A program made the translations under genes and the position numbers. The notes under the pieces are model-generated. The model saw only the letters and a program-made list of their open reading frames with translations. It was not told where the DNA came from and searched no databases. 64,000 nucleotides of DNA. It comes from Phorcus lineatus. Lineage: Eukaryota; Mollusca; Gastropoda; Trochida; Trochidae. The stretch is taken from positions 35,834,054 to 35,898,053 of the forward strand of contig OV121094.1 of assembly GCA_921293015.1 (NCBI GenBank). The letters run 5' to 3'. Positions 49,400-60,595 of the stretch are shown in pieces (positions within the stretch are counted from its first letter, which is position 1; each line of letters begins with the position of its first letter).

Positions 49400-50030
49400 C
49401 ACCAAAAACATGTAACAAGTAACCAGGTAGTTATTCAGTATTCTCATAACTATTAACTAATAAGTTGTCATCGTTAACCTGCCTAAAAAAGTTAAAATAA
49501 GATAAGTGAGACTACATCATCCTGAAAAGTAGTTTTAACTGAAATGGTTGAACTGTATGACACTGAGCCTGGGAGAGACGGTTAACGTGAATCACTGTCA
49601 CTAATGCTACATGTACATAAATAAGGATTTAGCTTGATATAAGTTCTTATTTCATTTGAATTTCTCAAAAGTTGCTATGAAGCTCAATTTCTACACTCGT
49701 TCAGCAAATTTCCCTCAAATACGATCACTATGACTGCATCTTTCGGTGTACAAAAGCAATAATCTACATCGCTGCATGACTTGGTTTTAGCCCTATGACA
49801 GCACTTGTGTGAACGAAGTGCTCATGGACAAAGCGTTGTATTTGTGTCTAGAATGAAAAAAAACATGTCTCCTTGACAGGGAATATGTTAGGAAATGAGC
49901 ATGTGAAGTTTGCAATTGCAGGTCGCCTGAACCAGATGGTCTACTTCTAAACTTAGAATACAGCGTTGTAAGGGAATAGAAATCCTTAAGAGAAAATTTA
50001 AAGACACTGGTTTGTTCCCTGAAGGACGCA
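49400..50030 (+). repeat. diverged direct repeat, left copy
   Basis: Aligns in direct orientation, with many substitutions and indels, to 56870-57512. Anchors include AACCTGCCTAAAAAAGTTAA (here) against AACCTGCCTAAGAAAATTGA, ATAAGATAAGT, GTGTACAAAA/CTGTACAAAA, TTTGCAATTG/TCTGCAATTG and GAATAGAAATCC/GAAATAGAAATTCC. At 49899-49979 it holds a frame ending in TAG that matches the ORF at 57364-57489 (CEVCNC and LLLNLEYSVVR), but it is preceded by a TGA. The left copy therefore looks decayed. Confidence 0.75.
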
Positions 50031-50100
50031 TTACTTATTTTATCTCAAACACTAGGGGTATATTCTCCTTTTGGCGGACACAAGGTCATGAAATCTATAG

Positions 50101-50560
50101 GACATAGCTATTTCCTAATTAGGACTTAATTATCTCCTAATAAGTGCATATTATCACCTAATTAGGAGATAATTAAGTCCTAATTACAACTTAGTTACCA
50201 CCTAATTAGGAGATCACTAAGTCGTACTTAGGACATAGCTATTTCCTAATTAGTTGATACTAACTCCTAATTAGGTGATGATTAAGTCCTAGTTAGGTGA
50301 TAGCTATCTCCTAATTAGGACTTAATATAATATCTCCTAATTAAGAGATAGTTTCTCCTAATAAGGTGATAGTTATGTCCTAATTAGGCGATGATTAAGT
50401 CCTTATTAGGTGATAACTATCTCCTAATTATTAGTTAGTATGTCCTAATTAGGACTTAATATCTCTTAATCAGGAGATAGTTTCTCCTAATTAGGTGATA
50501 GTTATGTCCTAATTAGGCAATGATTAAGTCCCAAATAGGTGATGGTATATCCTAGTTTGG
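50101..50560. repeat. array of CCTAATTAGG palindromes
   Basis: About 450 bp densely packed with the 10-bp palindrome. Nine perfect copies start at 50114, 50157, 50201, 50266, 50310, 50379, 50444, 50486 and 50508, plus about ten near matches (CCTAATAAGG, CCTAGTTAGG, CCTTATTAGG, CCTAATTACA and others). Spacers are variations on GTGATAGTTATGT and GATTAAGT. A block including TCTCCTAATAAGGTGATAGT recurs about 129 bp downstream, so amplification was in blocks. Each palindrome contains TAATTA, the core of homeodomain sites. Confidence 0.9.
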
Positions 50561-50678
50561 ATATAAAAACATTTTGACTGTGGCACTAGAATGCTTCCGT
50601 AAATTTCAAATAACGAGTAACATATATAGTTATTTAGTTATGTGTTAATCAAATATATGCCAGTTAACTATCCATTAG

Positions 50679-51222
50679 CACAGGGGCGTGTATCGCTTAG
50701 AAATAGCTTTAGAAAGACATATATACCTATAGACCCTACCCTACTACTATATAAAAGGAAAGGGATGTAACGACCAAACCACCCCATGCTTGAACAAAGT
50801 CAGTTTTCGCATCCAAAATAATTCTTCTGGACAAATTGTTCACTACCATTCGAAAGCTAAATGATTTCCCTACCAAACGAGCTACGGATTGTCAAAATCG
50901 GGAAATTATTTCAAAAGTTACATGCAACGACGCCCCGAAAATCGCTACCGCCAGATTTTCAAGCCAAAATCCCCACTCACGAAAAACAGCAAAAACTCAC
51001 CGTTTAACATCGTTTATTGATTCCAGCAATGTTGACAACACCAATGTAGAGCTCGATTCGATCGGCGACATCGAACTACATGTTCACAATATGAGAACAG
51101 CACCTAATTATTATTTCTACGAGTGCTAGCAGACATTCTATAAAAATTCATCTGCTTTGCTGTCGCCTTGTCGGCCATAGCAGTGGCCTTGACATTCATT
51201 TGACCTCGTAGCCGCAGCAAAT
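50679..51222 (+). repeat. left inverted arm
   Basis: 544 bp, matching 56126-56670 with four substitutions and one single-base indel in an A run. It contains an inward TATA box and a frame open from about 50794 to 51129. That frame has no ATG near its start; translation from the TTG at 50836 would give 97 residues beginning FTTIRKLNDFPTKRA. Three of the four substitutions lie in that 97-codon frame and all three are synonymous (CGG/AGG, TCG/TCA, GGC/GGG). Confidence 0.95.
50748..50758 (+). promoter_or_regulatory. TATA box in left arm, pointing inward
   Basis: TATATAAAAGG is a textbook TATA box about 70 bp from the terminus. A plus-strand transcript would begin around 50780 and enter the arm ORF and the interior. 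Confidence 0.5.
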
Positions 51223-53990
51223 TTAAGAATTATAGGATTTGGTTGAAATTAAAATTGACTATTTTCTATTAAATTCCCTTCTGCAGTCGTGTGTGTTTTA
51301 ATGAGCCCAAAATATTAAATAAACTCGGTCTTTATAACTATGGGTCAAATTATAATTTTTTTTAATGTTCCAGAAATATGTAATTATTCGACTGGCAAAT
51401 GTCAAAATTTCAAACGAATCGTTAGAAAATCGCAACATAACCTTTGATTTAATTGACAATAATTTTTTTTTATAATTTATGTAGAACAATATACTTATTA
51501 GTATGATTTTTCATTTTTTATTAAAGAATATAAACAACTTTTACTCGGTTTACCTAAAAATATTGTTTTGATCTTTTTCTCCAAAAAGTAATGGCATATA
51601 AAATATTAACCTGTTACCTACATTAACTTGATAGATTTCGCTATCCTTCTTAATTAAAGCATATATTTTGAAACTCAGTTATGTTTTATAATTGGAAAAG
51701 AAAATATTCAAAAATAAAAAGAATTTGTAAAGAGGTTAGAATCTCAGAGGCAAATTTGAAAGCAACTCCTAATTCTAGATAATCTACTTCCATGTTGAAT
51801 ATTTGATGTGCAGTTCAGATACATTATTTAATGAAATAATATAAGTTTACCATTAGATTGGTGATTTAATTTTATTTCTTCAAACAATAGTGATATAATT
51901 ATAATGATCAAAACTGTGTTTGACAAAAAAGGGGATATTTATTTTTCAGAGGTCAGACAGAATTATATATTTTTATCAATATTGGCTTGGCTCAGGAGTG
52001 AGATCATGAAAATCATGAAAGATGTGGATAGCAATCATTGATAATGACTTGTATTTTGTAATTCATACTGTTCAACCACCTTGGTGGTTAGGGGCATAAA
52101 TGCAATGCCTCGCTTGGAAGGTTACCTTAGTTTTCTTTATTGGAAGCAATTTTGACTTTCATCATTAAAAGATTAAAACAACAAAAACATATTAAGTTAT
52201 AATATGCTGCATTAAAACTTATTAACAGTTATGTATAATCATATTGAAAAAAATAACTTCTTATAACTCTAGTTGAAAGGTAGTTTTTTTGCCTCATGAA
52301 AAGGTGATTTGATTAAGTTGAGAGCAAATAGTCCTGTTGGCAGAGAGAATGCAATGATAGGTATCTTTTTACTTCAATAAGGCCAGTCTCTCCCCAATAA
52401 AGGAACAAAAATTAACAGTGTGTCCAATAAATAAGAGAAGAAATTTCATTCTTAAAGTAATCAGGTAATCAGTTATAAGGTTGAAAAAAGCATGTCTGAA
52501 GTGACAGATCTCCAGACTGGCACAGTACTTGTATCTTTAATTGCTGTTTTAAATGCAGTAAATCTGATTTAGTTATTTTTTTAGAATATTTGCGTATGAG
52601 GGCATTTTCCCCAAAATGTCCTGAATTTGTTTGCCTTGCAAGCAATAAACTCTTTAGTTTCATAAACATGTCTGTAATGGTTAGAATTGTAATCAAATGA
52701 AGGCTCTACCTTTTTTACACTTCAAAGAAATTAATTATGCTCACTGAAATTAATTTGAGTTGAGCGCGATAAAATAACACAAACCTTAACAGTGATACAC
52801 ACTCAACCTTTTTACAAGGTTCACAGGCTCAGAGGCACATCAGTTCAGTAATATTTTTCTCAGTTTTAAAAGAATAGAGCCATGACCCTGGAACTCATCA
52901 GGCTTTAAAATCTATTATCATTAGGCCATGGTATTATAATACCACTCGCTTACGGAGCATATAAATATTCCATCTTTTTAAGCTTTATTAAGATTATTAA
53001 AGAAGAAGATATTTATAAGGCCATGACCTGTGTGACTTTAGTGAGGGACAAACAAGATATATAAAATATAGTTCAGAATCCTCATTAGAATGTACAAAAA
53101 AATTCAAGTTTCTTCACTATCATCTTCAGGAGAAAAAAAATGAAAATAGGTTTTAGGAGTGGCCCCAGAGGCCTTTCTTAGGTCACCAAATTTATAAATT
53201 TAAATCCTTAGTAGTCAAGGAATTGGTACACAAAAGTATATTGGGACACCATCCCATGTCAGGCTAGATGGGGTGAAAAGTGAAATTGAATCACTTATTT
53301 GCTTGCAGTTTAATTCAATTGGCATAGAATATTTGATGTAGAAATTATAATTGAAAATCTAAAAACACATTCTTTGTACATCATCTGTTATAAAACCAGC
53401 ACGAAACAGACAGATTTGATTTCTAACCCATATTTCACCTAATGTTAAGCACTCATTACAAGTTATGCCAAAATAAACTTTCCTTGCCTATTATTGATGT
53501 GTATATTATAGTCATAAAAGTATTTGTATTCATTATTGAATTTCCTTTAAAATTTACCAACTCAACCTTTTAAATATTCATAAAAACATCATGAGAGGCT
53601 TTTACGAAGTACAACCTACTGATCATCTAAGTTATGCAAAGTGTTAACAATTACTCATGGTTAATGGTATTAAACTAAAACTAAAACTGAAAAGGGAGGT
53701 GTTATCCATAGGTGGCTAGAAATTTATGTATTAAACACATGAAATATCTTACTTTACACTCCTCAAAACACAGGTTGAGTTCTTTGAAGGCTAATGGCAC
53801 CTATAATGATCACATATCAAATAATATGAATCAATTGAATTCAATACAATCAATATAATTTTATATAAGTGATGAAAGTAAATGTATTGTTTTCTTGAGG
53901 ACTCACTTGTATGTCTGTATATATACAAAAACATATTAAAGAATCGTCACAAATAAATTCATTGATAGTCAATTTATTTGTTTTATTTGA
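51223..53990. other. AT-rich interior without recognised gene
   Basis: Interior of the 6.0-kb unit. Only short open frames. A 7-bp-stem hairpin (AACCACCTTGGTGGTT) lies at 52074-52089. Confidence 0.45.
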
Positions 53991-53994
53991 AGAT

Positions 53995-54000
53995 TTTATT
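53995..54000 (-). terminator. poly(A) signal for the candidate spliced gene
   Basis: AATAAA on the minus strand 40 bp after the predicted TAA, a normal distance for a 3' UTR. Confidence 0.4.
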
Positions 54001-54039
54001 GAATTACAGTAGCAGAAAATTTTCAAGAGTGTCCATGTA

Positions 54040-55923
54040 TTAGAAATTCTTTTCCATGTATGCAGCAAGGACATTCTCCAGATTAAACTGTCCCCTCTTG
54101 ATATCCAATCTTGTAACTGAAAATATAAATTGGAACCAAATTATGAGGCAAAAAAAGATTGTTCCATTGTCATTATAGCTCCTTAAGTACTGCAATATTT
54201 ATTGTATTTAATGTTACAAACTAACATTTTAAATAACAAAGTATAGTCAAAGTGGTTGCTCTCATAATTCAAACAATCATGGAACTTAATATTTGGTTAA
54301 TCATAATCTACATTGGTAAAGGTGTGTTGTATAAACATTAATAATTACAACCTTTTGCTTTTAAGATAGCTGAAATAAATAGGTTTTAAATTTAAAAGTT
54401 GGATTTCTTTTGCCTCTTTTACAGAATTACTCAATCAAACTCTAGAAACAAAGTGACACTTTTCACCAATAAAGATTCATACAGCATTAACAACAGCTTG
54501 AGACATAGTACCTAACCAATAACCCCAAAGCCCCCTCCTTATCTCCTTATTTTTCCCCGTGGTTAGGCCCTTCCACTACCTCTCCTCCCATTAAACCTGT
54601 TGTGACAATTGTCTTCCCTTTTCTCACTCATGGTAAACACAACTATTAAATAATATATCTAAAACATTACCCTGAGAAACATATTTCAAATGGATCATGT
54701 CTCAGTGACATATATCTAAAACTCTACATTAACTGCTGAAATACATTAACAAAAAATTTAAAAAATATATCATGCAAAGATCCAAATCTTTAGATTGTGG
54801 CTGTTGTGCTTACCTGAAACTTTCAAATAATGATGGAAAAGTGTCTCCACTCCCTCCTCCTGTATTGAGACACATGCCTGCAAAGAGAGAGAATCTTTTT
54901 GAAAAAACACTTCTATATTATAATCAATGTACATTTCATCCCTTTATTTCTTAAATTAATTTTTTTGGGGGATAATTCTAGGCTACATCATGTATTTGTG
55001 CTTGTCAAATTAAAACCATACTTACTCTGCTACTCTCTTTAGAAACTTTTACCCAAATGAATAGATATGTACATGATCATATATTTGATATTTATTACAA
55101 AAAGCCAGAAGGCTATTTACCAGCTGTCACCATCAGTTTGTAAGTGTAATACGGAAGGCTCAATCTTTAGATTATCTACATGTATAAATATGATATTACA
55201 AAATGGGAATAATTCAGGTATTCTAACAGTCTTGAATAAGAATAAAATATTGAGCAGCTTAGAAATAGAAGTGCTGGTAAATACATTTGATTGTGTTATA
55301 TCAAATTGATAACCAGATCATTAAAATAACATAAATTCTCAATCAAATACTTACTGTTAATAAGTATTCTGTGCCATGCCTTCATCTGAAATCCAAAATA
55401 AAAATCATGACTTAAACTTTTGTTAAAATGGTTTCAAACTTAATTGAACTAAACATTTACCTATTTTAGTTTCACATATATATTTTATAATCATATACAA
55501 ATATAGCACCTTCAAATTTTCAAAAGGCATGCATACCTAATCGATAAAGTCGGTATTATTGTCATATGTTAAAAACATGGCACTTTCATCAAAAATCAAT
55601 AATCAATGAAGCGTGTCTTATTGTTTTTTGTTTTTTTATGGAATATTGGCAAATCAATTAGATTTATAAATAACATTTTAGAGATGTTAAAACAATCACT
55701 AAAGTAAAATGATAAATTGATATTAAAATGATAGATTGATAGCAATTAAAAAAAAATATAATTATCAGTGAAAACATCGTATACGTCGATGCTTACCTGA
55801 TGGAGGCTTGGCAAATTAAAGGCATCGGTCCATTAATTATTCCCAGCACTGCCAGCAGCGGAGAGAAGTGATTCGAAGCGATTGGAGTTGGAGAATCGTT
55901 TTTTCTTTTGCCGATTCAGACAT
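54040..55923 (-). CDS. candidate spliced gene inside the 6.0-kb unit, unknown product
   Basis: Predicted minus-strand exons: exon 1 from upstream of 55900 to the donor at 55797 (CATCAG|GTAAGC); exon 2 from 55379 or 55385 to 55355 (AACA|GTAAGT); exon 3 54877-54814 (TCTCTTTGCAG acceptor, CAG|GTAAGC donor); exon 4 from 54116 (ATTTTCAG acceptor) to a TAA at 54042-54040. With the downstream acceptor for exon 2, one frame is open through all three junctions. It includes LLAVLGIINGPMPLICQ, RHGTEYLLTACVSIQEEG, VETLFHHYLKVS and TRLDIKRGQFNLENVLAAY. The start codon is not settled: an ATG at 55923 (MSESAKEKTILQLQS) is in another frame and stops within exon 1. I recognise no family. Splice signals, frame continuity and the nearby poly(A) signal are the evidence. 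Confidence 0.4.
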
Positions 55924-56125
55924 AAAAGTTTAAACTCCTAGAAAAGGCTCTCTTAAATTACTATATGTGACTAATTTCCACAAAAAAACAGCTCCAGTTT
56001 CTTGTGGTAAGGTGGACACGTCTAACAATCCTAAACGTTTTTCGACCACGTTGTGTTGTTTACAAACATGGTATTGAAAGGACTGTGAGGAGTTCGATCA
56101 GAGTTCGGAGTTCGCTCACTTGCTT

Positions 56126-56670
56126 ATTTGCTGCGGCTACGAGGTCAAATGAATGTCAAGGCCACTGCTATGGCCGACAAGGCGACAGCAAAGCAGATGA
56201 ATTTTTTATAGAATGTCTGCTAGCACTCGTAGAAATAATAATTAGGTGCTGTTCTCATATTGTGAACATGTAGTTCGATGTCCCCGATTGAATCGAGCTC
56301 TACATTGGTGTTGTCAACATTGCTGGAATCAATAAACGATGTTAAACGGTGAGTTTTTGCTGTTTTTCGTGAGTGGGGATTTTGGCTTGAAAATCTGGCG
56401 GTAGCGATTTTCGGGGCGTCGTTGCATGTAACTTTTGAAATAATTTCCCTATTTTGACAATCCGTAGCTCGTTTGGTAGGGAAATCATTTAGCTTTCGAA
56501 TGGTAGTGAACAATTTGTCCAGAAAAATTATTTTGGATGCGAAAACTGACTTTGTTCAAGCATGGGGTGGTTTGGTCGTTACATCCCTTTCCTTTTATAT
56601 AGTAGTAGGGTAGGGTCTATAGGTATATATGTCTTTCTAAAGCTATTTCTAAGCGATACACGCCCCTGTG
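56126..56670 (-). repeat. right inverted arm
   Basis: Inverted copy of 50679-51222. The 97-codon frame (56513-56220, minus) encodes exactly the same residues as in the left arm. Confidence 0.95.
56591..56601 (-). promoter_or_regulatory. TATA box in right arm, pointing inward
   Basis: The same TATATAAAAGG as in the left arm, on the minus strand. It lies about 0.7 kb upstream of predicted exon 1 of the candidate spliced gene and could drive it. Confidence 0.5.
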
Positions 56671-56869
56671 GTTGAAGATACATGGGGTTTTGGGGAGGGG
56701 TTGTGGCTCGGGATGGCATTCTTTTATATCGGAAGGCTTGGAAACTAAGAAGTGTCTCCAATATTAACAGTTAGTGTAAGTGAGACACGCTTGATCCATG
56801 TCCTTCTAACCATCCAATGAATCACCAATGAAGCTCGTCTTACACAATTTGAGTAGTAAATGAGTCAGG

Positions 56870-57512
56870 GGTAACATGTTAGTTATATAGTATAGTTCTT
56901 TGATTCTCTAATATCAGCAAGTTAATCATTCATTATTTGAAAAACGAATAACTAAGTTATTCTTTATTTGAATAATTCATATCTAATAATTTCCCAATTT
57001 CAACCTGCCTAAGAAAATTGAAATAAGATAAGTACGACTGATATTGAAACAGACTACTAACTGAATTATCAGTGTTTATGACACTAACCATGGGAGAAAT
57101 TCTCCATGTACATATAGGTATGTACATATGGTAAAGGCTCCTGGATTCTGTTTGCTATCAGTCTTACTAGTTTTTTAAATCTCTCATAAGTTTTTAGCAT
57201 ATATAACTGCAAATGCGATCACCATTTGAACATTACTCGCTGTACAAAACCACTATAATTAAAACGCTGCAGTAACGATTCCAGGGGGTGAAACCAGTTA
57301 TAGTGCTTTGTCAGAACGAAATGCTAATAGAAAATGTGAATGTAACTAGAGTGAAAAAACACCATGGTTCTGTCCATGCCTTCCTTCACAAGGAAATCTA
57401 ATGTACCGATCTGTGCAGTCTGCAATTGTGAGAAGCCTGATCGAGCTGCTCAACTACTAAATTTAGGATACAGATTTGTAAGGAAATAGAAATTCCTAAG
57501 TGAAAATTTCCA
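56870..57512 (+). repeat. diverged direct repeat, right copy
   Basis: Partner of 49400-50030. Its right end is interrupted by the 3' end of the LINE at 57513. See the left copy for shared anchors. Confidence 0.75.
57364..57489 (+). CDS. short Cys-containing ORF (41 aa), possibly a gene relic
   Basis: The ATG sits in an ideal Kozak context (CACCATGG) and the frame runs 41 codons to TAG. It holds a cysteine cluster, ICAVCNC, then PDRAAQLLNLGYRFVRK. The diverged direct repeat at 49899-49979 keeps the same frame over its last 26 codons, the same Cys spacing (CEVCNC) and the same stop position. The order of Cys residues is faintly reminiscent of the start of a zinc-binding module such as THAP, but His and later residues are absent. 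It may be one exon of a lost gene or a coincidence of an old repeat. Confidence 0.3.
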   Translation: MVLSMPSFTRKSNVPICAVCNCEKPDRAAQLLNLGYRFVRK

Positions 57513-57625: not shown

Positions 57626-58469
57626 TTATGTTATAAATGATTCTCGAAATTCCATAGCATGGTAAATATACATTGCAATGTTTCTAATGCATTTTTCATT
57701 TTTATTTGACATTAATTCAATGAAGTGGTGTTTTGACCTTATTGCAACATTAATGTATTGCTTTCTAATATGTGAAAGTGATTCACAAAGGAGTAGAAAA
57801 TGATACTCATCTTCGATCTCTCCTGATCTACACAATCTGCATATTCTATTTAAACGTTCTACGCCATTCATTCTACCAGTTTCTATTTCAAGTGGGAGGA
57901 CTCCACAACGGAAATTTGCCAAAGCACTTCTAAATTTATTTATTTGAAGTGAATTTATGTAATCTTCGGTTTCAAATCTGAGTTTAAAAGTTTTGTAAAT
58001 TTGAAGTTTGGATATATTCTCTATCGTTGTATACCAATCTGATATAAACACATCTTTTATCCTTTGTCTGAATAAATTTGCCCAAACATACATAAATCCG
58101 TTTAAGCACAAAATGTTCCTAACTCTAGTTTCCCAGTTGACTAAACATTTGTGTCATACAGGAGAGACATTTTGTAGGATTTCTTGGCATATCTATGGTC
58201 AGGCATACTGCTTATCTTGAGCCAAAATTTTACAACTCTGACCATAGTATTAACAAATATTGGGAAACGGCCACATTCACCAAGAACAGCATAATTTGGT
58301 GCTTTAATTGCTAGTTTAAGATATATCTTGCAAGCTGTTATTTGAATTCTCTCTAGTTCATCGTAATTTTTATATCCCCAGATTTCACAGCCATACGTCA
58401 GAATCGGTAATATTTTACAATCAAAGATTTTGAAAAATGTTTGACTTTTTGTAAAGCAATTCATGTTTA
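57626..58469 (-). pseudogene. LINE ORF2 C-terminal region, frameshifted
   Basis: Two frames, 58464-58141 and 58111-57626, continue the LINE after the insertion. The first has CFTKSQTFFKIFDCKILPIL and TYGCEIWGYKNYDELERIQ, a standard post-RT motif. The second starts in another frame near 58130 (NWETRVRNIL just upstream) and carries a zinc-knuckle-like CRLCRSGEIEDEYHFLLLC (Cys-x2-Cys, then His and Cys) close to its end, stopping at 57626. At least one frameshift near 58140 separates the two. Confidence 0.85.
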
Positions 58470-59055
58470 TGTCCGAATTTTCTTGCGATCCGTCATGCGA
58501 TGCGATCCGATGCGTTTGTCATGTACACACTATACGCGATTATATGTACGTTTAGCATTGCGTTTTATCTATGTCTTTACATTAGTTTCAGGAATGGATG
58601 CTTATATAGCCATGTAGTTATTGGAAGAGGAAGAGGAGGAGGAAGAAGAAATAGAGCTCATCAGTTATATCCTAAATGCTAAGGATAATAGTATGTAAAT
58701 AACGACAGAAGCAATATTCAACAGTATGTCAATAATATAATGTGTAGCAAATAGCGTGATTTGGTAATACATATCTAAATATCATTAGCATGGAAGCATG
58801 GTACCTACCTCTATTTCCTAACACGTGGTTTGAATGGAAATGCACGAAATATGACGTCAGAAGGGAATCCTTCATGCGATTCCATTTGCGATGCGTCAAA
58901 ACTAGGTGCAGCACCTATTTTCATCGCATCGGATCGCATCGCATTGACGCATCGGTCGTAGTGTGAGCGCTCTATGAAAAATACACGGTATGCGGTTTTT
59001 TTTACGCATCGCATGACGGATCGCAAGGAAATTCGGACGTAGTGTGTTTCCAGTC
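58470..59055. mobile_element. 586-bp DNA element inserted in the LINE, TTA target duplication
   Basis: Terminal region GTCCGAATTTTCTTGCGATC at 58471 faces its complement ending GGAAATTCGGAC at 59037. The shared inverted part is about 33 bp, extending to TGCGATGCG. The right side has an extra GTAGTGTGTTTCCAGTC. TTA occurs on both flanks (58467-58469 and 59056-59058). Removing the element and one TTA keeps the LINE reading frame in register. A 3-bp TWA-type duplication is characteristic of PIF/Harbinger elements. GATGCGATGCGATCCGATGC-type repeats fill the subterminal regions. No transposase. Confidence 0.7.
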
Positions 59056-60499
59056 TTAGCGTATTGAGTATACAATTCAAAGCTCGTTTACCTTCCATAG
59101 CTCTTTTGTTGATTGCATACTTCCATGATAACTGAGGGGTGAAATATAAACCTAAGTACTTGTAAGTTTTCACAATTTTCAACTCTTCCCCATCAAAATT
59201 CCATTTTTCATCTTTACTTAAAACACCTCCCTTTCTGAATACCATTATATTTGATTTAGCCATATTGACCTTAAGTCCATATTCAATAGAAAATGAAGAG
59301 AGGATGTTCAACTGTTTTTGCAGATCCCTGCACACATTAGAAAACAACACAATATCATCAGCAAACAAAAGTAAATATATATGAACAAGATCCGGCATAA
59401 GTTGTATCCCATAGCAATCTGAACATTCAATACCGGTAGCTAATTCATTATAATAAATTGAAAATATAAGAGGGCTCATTATGCAGCCTTGTTTTAAACC
59501 TATGGGACATTTGAAGAATTCTGAATATATGTTATTGTTTCTTACACAGGCAGTTACATTGTTATAGAGATTTTGTATAATCTTACATAGCTTGCCTTTC
59601 ATTCCAATACGGTTAAATAGATTCCATAACTTAGGACGCCTTACTGTATCAAAAGCTTTTCTAAAATCTATGAACGCAGCATATAATTTACCTCTTTTCC
59701 TTGATATTTGTTTCTCTATTAATGCATTTAAAACAAAAATATTATCAATCGTGGAATAATCATGCCTAAAGCCAGCTTGTGATTCAGCAATCTTATCAAA
59801 TATGTCTGTCCACATTCTCAATCTTTTACATATGATTGACGTAAATATTTTACCGAATATACTTAAAAGAGATATTCCTCTGTAATTATTTGGATCATCT
59901 GCTGGTCCACTTTTATGTAATGGTATAATGATAGCCTTAGACCATTCATCCGGTATACAGCCGGAGTCGAACATTTTATGAAATAACTTATGAAGAGTTG
60001 GAATTAAAACATCAACCCCATATATGAAGAATTCCGCAATTAAATTATCAAGACCGGCGGACTTATTCCTTTTCAGACCGTTTATAGCGTCTCTAATTTC
60101 GGTTTCAGTTATGCCACTGTTTAAAATCATATTAGATATTTCATCGACATCATTATCATCATCAAAAATATCAGAGGACGTATCTTCATTCCCCTCATTA
60201 AACAGGTTACAAAAGTGTTCCTTCCATACATCGATTGAAATGTTATTTTTACGATTGGATGTTTTGCGAGAATTCAAAATGCGGTTAACCGTTTTCCAAA
60301 AGAGATTAGGCTCATTAATATTTTTCATTAAACTGTCAATAGATGCTTCATCGTACTCTTTTTGTTTTTGTTGACAAACAGATCTAAACGCCTGCTTACT
60401 GTCTAGATAAACATTTAAATCATTATCATCATGTGTTTTTCTGAACTTCCTGAGGTTCACATATTTTTTTTCTTTTCGACGTCTGACACTCCCTATCAA
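59056..60499 (-). pseudogene. LINE reverse transcriptase, interrupted
   Basis: Open frame covering the RT domain. Fingers and palm motifs in order: IIIPLHKSG near residue 190, NNYRGISLLS at 204-213, SQAGFRHDYST at 240-250, the first catalytic Asp in AFIDFRKAFDTV (275-286), GLKQGCIMSPLIFSIYYN at 334-351, and the FADD active site in LLLFADDIVLF (376-386). KVNMAKSNIMVF and YKYLG follow. The LINE part ends at about residue 482; codons beyond that belong to the inserted DNA element. The true upstream frame (WFDRECQTSK) is joined only through a frameshift in the A-run near 60470. Without that and the downstream half it cannot make a functional protein. Confidence 0.9.
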
Positions 60500-60595
60500 A
60501 CCAAACAGGTTGTTTTCTTACTCTATTAATTTCCAGACACTGGTTTGATCCTTTGACGACACCTATCTCTTTGTTTTGAAAACACTAGGGATAAG

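Follow-up and report, generated by a model that had tools for sequence, protein, structure and literature searches.

What kind of sequence carries long, nearly identical inverted arms with promoter-like boxes facing inward, encloses a middle with splice signals, and lacks a recognisable transposase? This question is raised by a unit of 5,992 bp at positions 50679..56670 of the window, the stretch of 64,000 nucleotides of the Phorcus lineatus genome analysed here (G000:C29:35834054-35898053; assembly of 958 Mb in 74 contigs). Its left terminal inverted repeat comprises 544 bp (50679..51222, plus strand) and starts with the terminus CACAGGGGCGTGTATCGC, while the right one comprises 545 bp (56126..56670, minus strand). 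As judged from the arm comparison, the two are 99% identical: four substitutions and an indel of a single base separate them, in full agreement with a preliminary description of the locus, which had given their length as about 545 bp. The inward-facing consensus box claimed for each arm is likewise present, as TATATAAAAGG, at 50748-50758 (+) on the left and at 56591-56601 (-) on the right; as sequence features, these promoter-like boxes are right. The interior without recognisable coding sequence (51223..56125) is, like the unit as a whole, assigned to neither strand.

The unit represents one copy of a family of long-TIR elements of about 6 kb and is very probably a non-autonomous cut-and-paste DNA transposon of the TIR order, belonging to a high-copy and recently amplified family. 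This assignment is based on the occurrence of fixed termini at hundreds of dispersed places, on target-site duplications (TSDs) at most of the sampled end pairs, on the lack of a recognisable transposase in those copies whose ORFs were examined, and on short derivatives which are reduced to the outermost ~55-80 bp of the arms and likewise show 8-bp duplications. It would represent a new family within an established type of element.

Copies and target sites of the family

Exact matches to the 29-base terminus number 875 across the genome, 430 and 445 on the two strands, compared with none for its reversed control. When the arm was used as query, the best 40 of 1,132 candidates were scored and proved to be 96-100% identical throughout, and the interior yielded 57 matching pieces from the best 32 of 443 candidates scored. 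Among the first ~100 terminus places listed (contigs C1 and C2), most pair, as judged by eye, at distances of either ~120-210 bp or ~5.5-8.5 kb. All fetched copies of more than 1 kb keep at least parts of the interior of the window unit, some of them with deletions or nested insertions, and CACAGGGGCG also opens the arms of the other fetched copies, except for one arm of L032 that matches only from base 6. The preliminary description had considered that the arms might be unique in the genome, which does not hold in view of these hundreds of dispersed copies. Both features that define the TIR order, namely fixed terminal inverted repeats around many dispersed copies and a target duplication of fixed length (8 bp), are found in the family; the window copy itself is without the second.

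Ten nearly identical copies (L013-L018, L022, L024, L027, and L028) share 98.7-99.8% identity with each other, which shows that the amplification of the family is recent and agrees with the very recent origin proposed before. The window copy is 94.6-94.9% identical to these ten copies and 97.7% identical to L009. A comparison of the arms within and between elements was based on the ten elements remaining from 21 after exclusion of L031, which has a truncated arm, and of the ten near-identical copies. In eight of the ten, each arm has its closest relative in the opposite arm of the same element (L019 and L021 being the exceptions), with a small margin of a single difference in L030 and L032 and of two differences in L009 and L025. 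The mean divergence among independent lineages, as calculated from 28 pairs of eight copies with L031 excluded for its truncated arm, amounts to 3.57% for the arms versus 4.76% for the interior. Taken together, the lower divergence of the arms and their closeness within elements fit a periodic re-equalisation of the arms, either by gene conversion or during transposition.

Many copies contain an insertion of ~400 bp close to window positions 55072-55097, bounded by an overlap of up to ~26 bp, which serves as a subfamily marker and is not present in the window copy. A degenerate-pattern search for arms surrounding a different interior, in which only about a quarter of random interiors pass, so that a few could be missed, gave the single match L061. 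It was rejected as an example of arms with a new interior, being in fact a copy with a nested element of 3.5 kb that belongs to a different long-TIR type. This nested element (L061:1710-5212) is located at the inner edge of the arm and shows inverted ends of 464 bp with 99.8% identity, a 9-bp duplication (GCAGCAAAT), and no large ORF. Another nested element, at L026:3061-8097, codes for reverse transcriptase and RNase H and shows a tyrosine-recombinase match below the cut-off (0.0051); we take it to be a DIRS/Ngaro-like retroelement. In the window itself, a degenerate array of CCTAATTAGG-type palindromic repeats (50098-50570) adjoins the left side of the unit, and the right edge of this array (about 50560-50620) recurs elsewhere in the genome. 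Further features of the window are a 568-aa ORF with a reverse transcriptase domain (58814-60517, minus strand; RVT_1, 2.2e-36), which probably belongs to a non-LTR retrotransposon, and a 37-bp inverted repeat (58468-58504 / 59005-59041).

TSDs of 8 bp with at least seven matching positions are present at 41 of the 55 end pairs, the chance of such a match being ~6e-4 per pair. The first set, for which we chose the top-scoring matches to the arm and the interior along with a few of the listed termini, contributes 20 of 28 pairs, 17 of them perfect, and the second set, taken from the listed exact termini of C1 and C2, contributes 19 perfect duplications in 24 pairs (13 of 16 full-length and 6 of 8 MITE-size pairs); two more are found in three further short elements. 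In the first and second sets together, the 39 TSDs point to a weak preference for nTTnnAAn. Pairs without a TSD at seven of eight positions are those of the window copy, L009, L016, L021, L032, and L035-L037 in the first set, L068/069, L072/073, L094/095, L083, and L085 in the second, and L104 among the further short elements; L032, which is scored as a miss, may hold a TSD behind a small terminal loss. The proportion of 14 of 55 end pairs without duplication indicates that secondary events or another mode of insertion are common.

The flanks of the window copy, TCCATTAG and GTTGAAGA, match at none of the eight positions, and the earlier statement that there is no obvious target duplication is thus correct for this copy but not for its family. 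The missing TSD is explained most simply by a later rearrangement or by loss of a flank. A search for a recombination partner, in which both flank octamers were sought beside the terminus, gave three matches, none of them exact. Joined flanks gave no empty site among the best 40 of 168 candidates scored; in these, the right flank matches only at the window, and the left flank matches elsewhere only within its first ~60 bases, which are a repeat. The lack of a TSD and of an empty site in these searches would suit a one-off inverted duplication or a misassembly, an explanation which is refuted for the family by the 875 exact termini, the copies on many contigs, and the TSDs at most sampled end pairs, and which retains practically no probability for the unit.

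Minimal ends, the TATA block and a sister family

The copies of MITE size are for the most part made up of the outer ~55-81 bp from both arms. In two of them, L082 and L089, the 81 outermost bases of the arm form a palindrome of 162 bp (palindromy 1.00), and the two are inserted at separate sites with different perfect duplications. MITEs are short, internally deleted, non-coding elements which stay below roughly 0.8 kb. The derivatives of 99-206 bp, including the two palindromes, fit this type, whereas the window unit differs from it by its size of about 6 kb, its 545-bp arms, and its long unique middle. The preliminary description had called the layout non-standard for a MITE, which is true with respect to size; the layout as such is known from non-autonomous long-TIR elements such as Galileo-type copies and Mu elements. 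The outer ~55-80 bases seem to be enough for movement, unless the remainder was lost after insertion. A first search pattern for ends with a diverging subterminal part returned five matches, three of which were read. L102 is a diverged MITE of 154 bp with ~88-90% identity to the arm end and a perfect 8-bp duplication, L103, an element of 801 bp, shares the terminus but has a different middle, together with a perfect 8-bp duplication and no transposase seen, and L104 is MITE-like without a TSD. A THAP-domain ORF is located ~2.4 kb from the L103 element.

The TATA block of the left arm extends over 50744..50790 (+). Between 50747 and 50790, 43 of 44 positions are invariant in 41 arms, which makes this stretch the most invariant 44-bp window of the arm, and a value of 43/44 was reached in 0.8% of 20,000 shuffles. 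Invariance within the family was nevertheless rejected as stand-alone evidence, because the interior contains long invariant runs as well (16 runs of at least 21 bp among 18 copies). Another line of evidence comes from the short copies: TATATAAA is missing from four of 14 (L038, L086, L088, and L102), all four of which show perfect duplications, and GGGATGTAACG is found in none of the 14. The perfect TSDs of copies devoid of TATATAAA suggest that the block may represent a promoter rather than a transposase site, although it could also have been dropped from the short copies after insertion. Apparently, the terminus is needed for movement and the TATA block is not.

The least expected result was a sister long-TIR family which shares the terminus and the TATA block. 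It was recovered by a pattern for ends that share positions 12-29 and diverge beyond, which matched at six places, three of them alike; L107, one of these three, was read. Its 18-base pattern match is part of a repeat also present in L108, and another element with the identical 18-bp terminus CACAGGGGCGTGTATCGC starts at L107:121. Over the 400 bases compared, the sole local alignment reported between the sister arm and the window arm is CTACTATATAAATACTAAAGGGATGTAACGCCC, with a score of 44 versus 36 for the best of 300 shuffles. It begins at position 65 of the sister arm and position 66 of the window unit, so that the segment 50744-50775 of the left-arm block matches at nearly the same offset. 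The two families thus have in common the 18-bp terminus and the block from the TATA box to GGGATGTAACG, the rest of the sampled arm having diverged. A 50-bp stretch of the interior (53185-53234) also resembles the interior of the sister family (46.4 bits versus 33.7 for the reversed control). With the 400-bp sister arm as query, the best 40 of 415 candidates were scored, and for 16 of the 23 forward ends among these matches a partner lies within 20 kb. The resulting lengths are 1,145-1,154 bp for 13 pairs, 664 and 762 bp for two others, and 8,834 bp for the remaining one. The ends of the latter copy (C12:28467560-28476393) are inverted over 400 bp or more, and ten ORFs from the first 3.9 kb of the copy gave no Pfam match above cut-off. 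Since the inward TATA block holds its position in a distant sister family, and some short copies with perfect TSDs do without it, it would, in the simplest reading, represent a core promoter derived from a common autonomous ancestor.

Source of the transposase

Searches for an autonomous partner with hAT, P, and KDZ profiles revealed many transposases, none of which is tied to the terminus of the window family. For hAT, the best 150 of 287 genome candidates were scored, and the 3' kilobase beyond the domain was inspected in 18 of the 150 hits without finding CGCCCCTGTG or a CACAGGGGCG end; one of these 18 regions, L055, contains CGCCCCTG within that kilobase, which is the core of the terminus minus its outermost two bases. 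P-type transposases gave 11 genome matches, and two P-element regions of 12 kb and 4 kb, in which the element ends are undefined, contain neither CACAGGGG nor a CACAGGGGCG end. One P-type element carries an 872-aa transposase ORF (L057:1295-3913), with five genome matches of equal score and length, and a convergent ORF of 384 aa (L057:4098-5252); its ends were not found in 12 kb. The KDZ transposase (Zisupton/KDZ) gave 18 genome matches. On contig C1, for which all termini were listed, no scored hAT, P, or KDZ position is located within 10 kb of any 29-bp terminus, as judged by eye, and none of the matches (for hAT, the best 150 of 287 candidates scored) falls into the 8,834-bp sister copy. 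As neither an autonomous partner nor a transposase was identified, mobilisation in trans is something that we infer. Mavericks/Polintons have a protein-primed DNA polymerase, an integrase, and 6-bp TSDs; the family differs from them by its 8-bp TSDs and by the lack of polymerase or integrase domains in the scanned ORFs.

The 8-bp TSD is compatible with hAT elements, for which 8 nt are given (PMC8903248), as well as with P-like and some MULE elements. Long TIRs combined with TSDs of 8-11 bp, the definition of MULEs in PMC6446971, are both present in the window family. In MuDR/Mu, the promoters of the genes lie within the TIRs, as does a binding site for the transposase (PMC3440606), and MuDR/Mu and other MULEs resemble the window family in their long TIRs, which are common to diverse elements, and in their TSDs of 8-11 bp (PMC3440606, PMC6446971). 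Compared with MuDR/Mu, movement in the window family would seem to require no more than the outer ~55-80 bp, judging from the short copies. Long TIRs with promoters fit MULEs, and long TIRs without transposase fit Galileo copies; we assign the family to none of these superfamilies. That the transposase is supplied by a Mutator-like element rather than by hAT or P is a serious candidate explanation, to which we give somewhat less than even chances. Apart from three published MULE features, namely long TIRs, promoters located within them, and TSDs of 8-11 bp (PMC6446971, PMC3440606), it is favoured by the 8-bp TSD of the invertebrate MULE Spectre (PMC6446971) and by the absence of the CACAGGGGCG end from the 3' kilobases of the 18 hAT hits and from the P-element regions read. 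However, the hAT test spans 1 kb past the domain in 18 of 150 scored hits, among which L055 holds CGCCCCTG, the element ends are undefined in both P-element tests, and TSDs of 8 bp are standard for hAT as well (PMC8903248).

Galileo, a member of the P superfamily from Drosophila, provides another close parallel. According to its description (PMC4168063), the TIRs of the most complete copy measure 765 and 757 bp and are 99% alike, a transposase segment is missing from 124 of 191 copies, which consist of the two TIRs, ~89% of the copies with preserved ends have TSDs (7 or 8 bp), and two subfamilies are co-resident. The window family shares with it the long near-identical TIRs, the transposase-less copies, the TSDs in most copies, and the co-resident subfamilies. 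In contrast, the Galileo TSD is mostly of 7 bp with the consensus GTATTAC (PMC4168063), compared to 8 bp with a weak nTTnnAAn preference in the window family, and the terminus of the latter is tied to no P transposase among the P regions read.

The interior and its possible origin

The longest ORFs of the unit are two of 111 aa, both located in the arms, and one copy of the main subfamily contains an ORF of up to 141 aa. None of 14 sequences searched against Pfam, namely ten window ORFs and two ORFs of L014 as single ORFs plus two joined-exon readings, exceeded a family cut-off. The absence of transposase, integrase, and polymerase noted in the preliminary description is thereby borne out, and the unit shows no recognisable transposase of its own, as an autonomous element should have. 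The joined exons matched nothing in Pfam or PDB, and Rfam gave no match across window positions 50000-57500.

Four putative exons can be drawn on the minus strand: the end of exon 1 with a GTAAGC donor and an undefined start (55797..55806), exon 2 (55355..55385; AG..GTAAGT) with indels of 4-5 bp between copies, exon 3 (54814..54877; AG..GTAAGC) with indels of 2 and 6 bp, and exon 4 (53995..54116), drawn to an AATAAA, with a 14-bp deletion in three copies. In 20 aligned copies, the splice dinucleotides are kept except for one lost donor and for L009, from which exon 4 is absent, and the putative exons are no more conserved than their surroundings. A coding cargo was rejected because of the frameshifting indels in exons 2, 3, and 4 among these copies and the lack of exon-specific conservation. 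Of the spliced cargo proposed previously, the retained splice sites therefore remain, while there is no sign of a maintained protein. In the arm read outward, a short ATG-started open frame ending at a GTGAGT donor-like site is discernible by eye at ~51001-51071 (-) and in the right-arm mirror, from which outward splicing into flanking DNA would be conceivable in principle.

The cargo may be either a fragment captured from a gene or what is left of a transposon gene after decay. In the former case, the unit would be a Pack-TYPE element, whose interior derives from a host gene fragment with introns. We regard this as rather unlikely, though worth keeping in mind: a captured genomic fragment would be expected to keep its introns, splice sites, and poly(A) signal while its coding capacity decays, as is seen here, but Pfam and PDB revealed no parent gene for the joined exons, which could equally belong to a decayed transposon gene. 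Pack-TYPE elements are described as found in plants (PMC8903248) and resemble the window unit in being non-autonomous and bounded by TIRs, with an interior that in the window unit is possibly genic with introns; they are defined by captured coding DNA, whereas no parent gene was found in Pfam or PDB for the interior of the window unit. It is improbable that the arms act as two promoters, selected separately from the movement ends in an element without protein, whose working product would be convergent spliced non-coding transcription, for example an RNA that aids the spread of the element or blunts silencing. An autonomous element, in which the spliced minus-strand gene or other small exons encode a divergent transposase missed by Pfam, appears very improbable. 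It would account for the four putative exons, which are well formed with GT-AG sites, and for the AATAAA, all located downstream of the inward TATA box of the right arm, but is at odds with the frameshifts in exons 2, 3, and 4 of the 20 aligned copies, the lack of exon-level conservation, the small size of the ORFs (up to 111 aa for the unit, up to 141 aa for the main-subfamily copy), and the lack of a Pfam match above cut-off for single ORFs and joined exons.

If the unit is a non-autonomous transposon, as preferred here, a transposase made elsewhere would recognise the outer part of the arms, excise or copy the element, and insert it with an 8-bp stagger. The inward TATA block would then be a core promoter inherited from the ancestral element, and the interior with its splice signals a passenger. 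The family was recently active, with coexisting forms of ~6 kb, ~1 kb, and ~0.15 kb, and thereby allows the minimal mobile ends to be estimated from nature, at about 55-80 bp. The promoter-like block kept in place between otherwise diverged arms separates possible needs of transcription from those of transposition. Finally, the hundreds of dispersed, near-identical inverted arms, with 14 of 55 sampled end pairs lacking a TSD, represent possible substrates for rearrangements.
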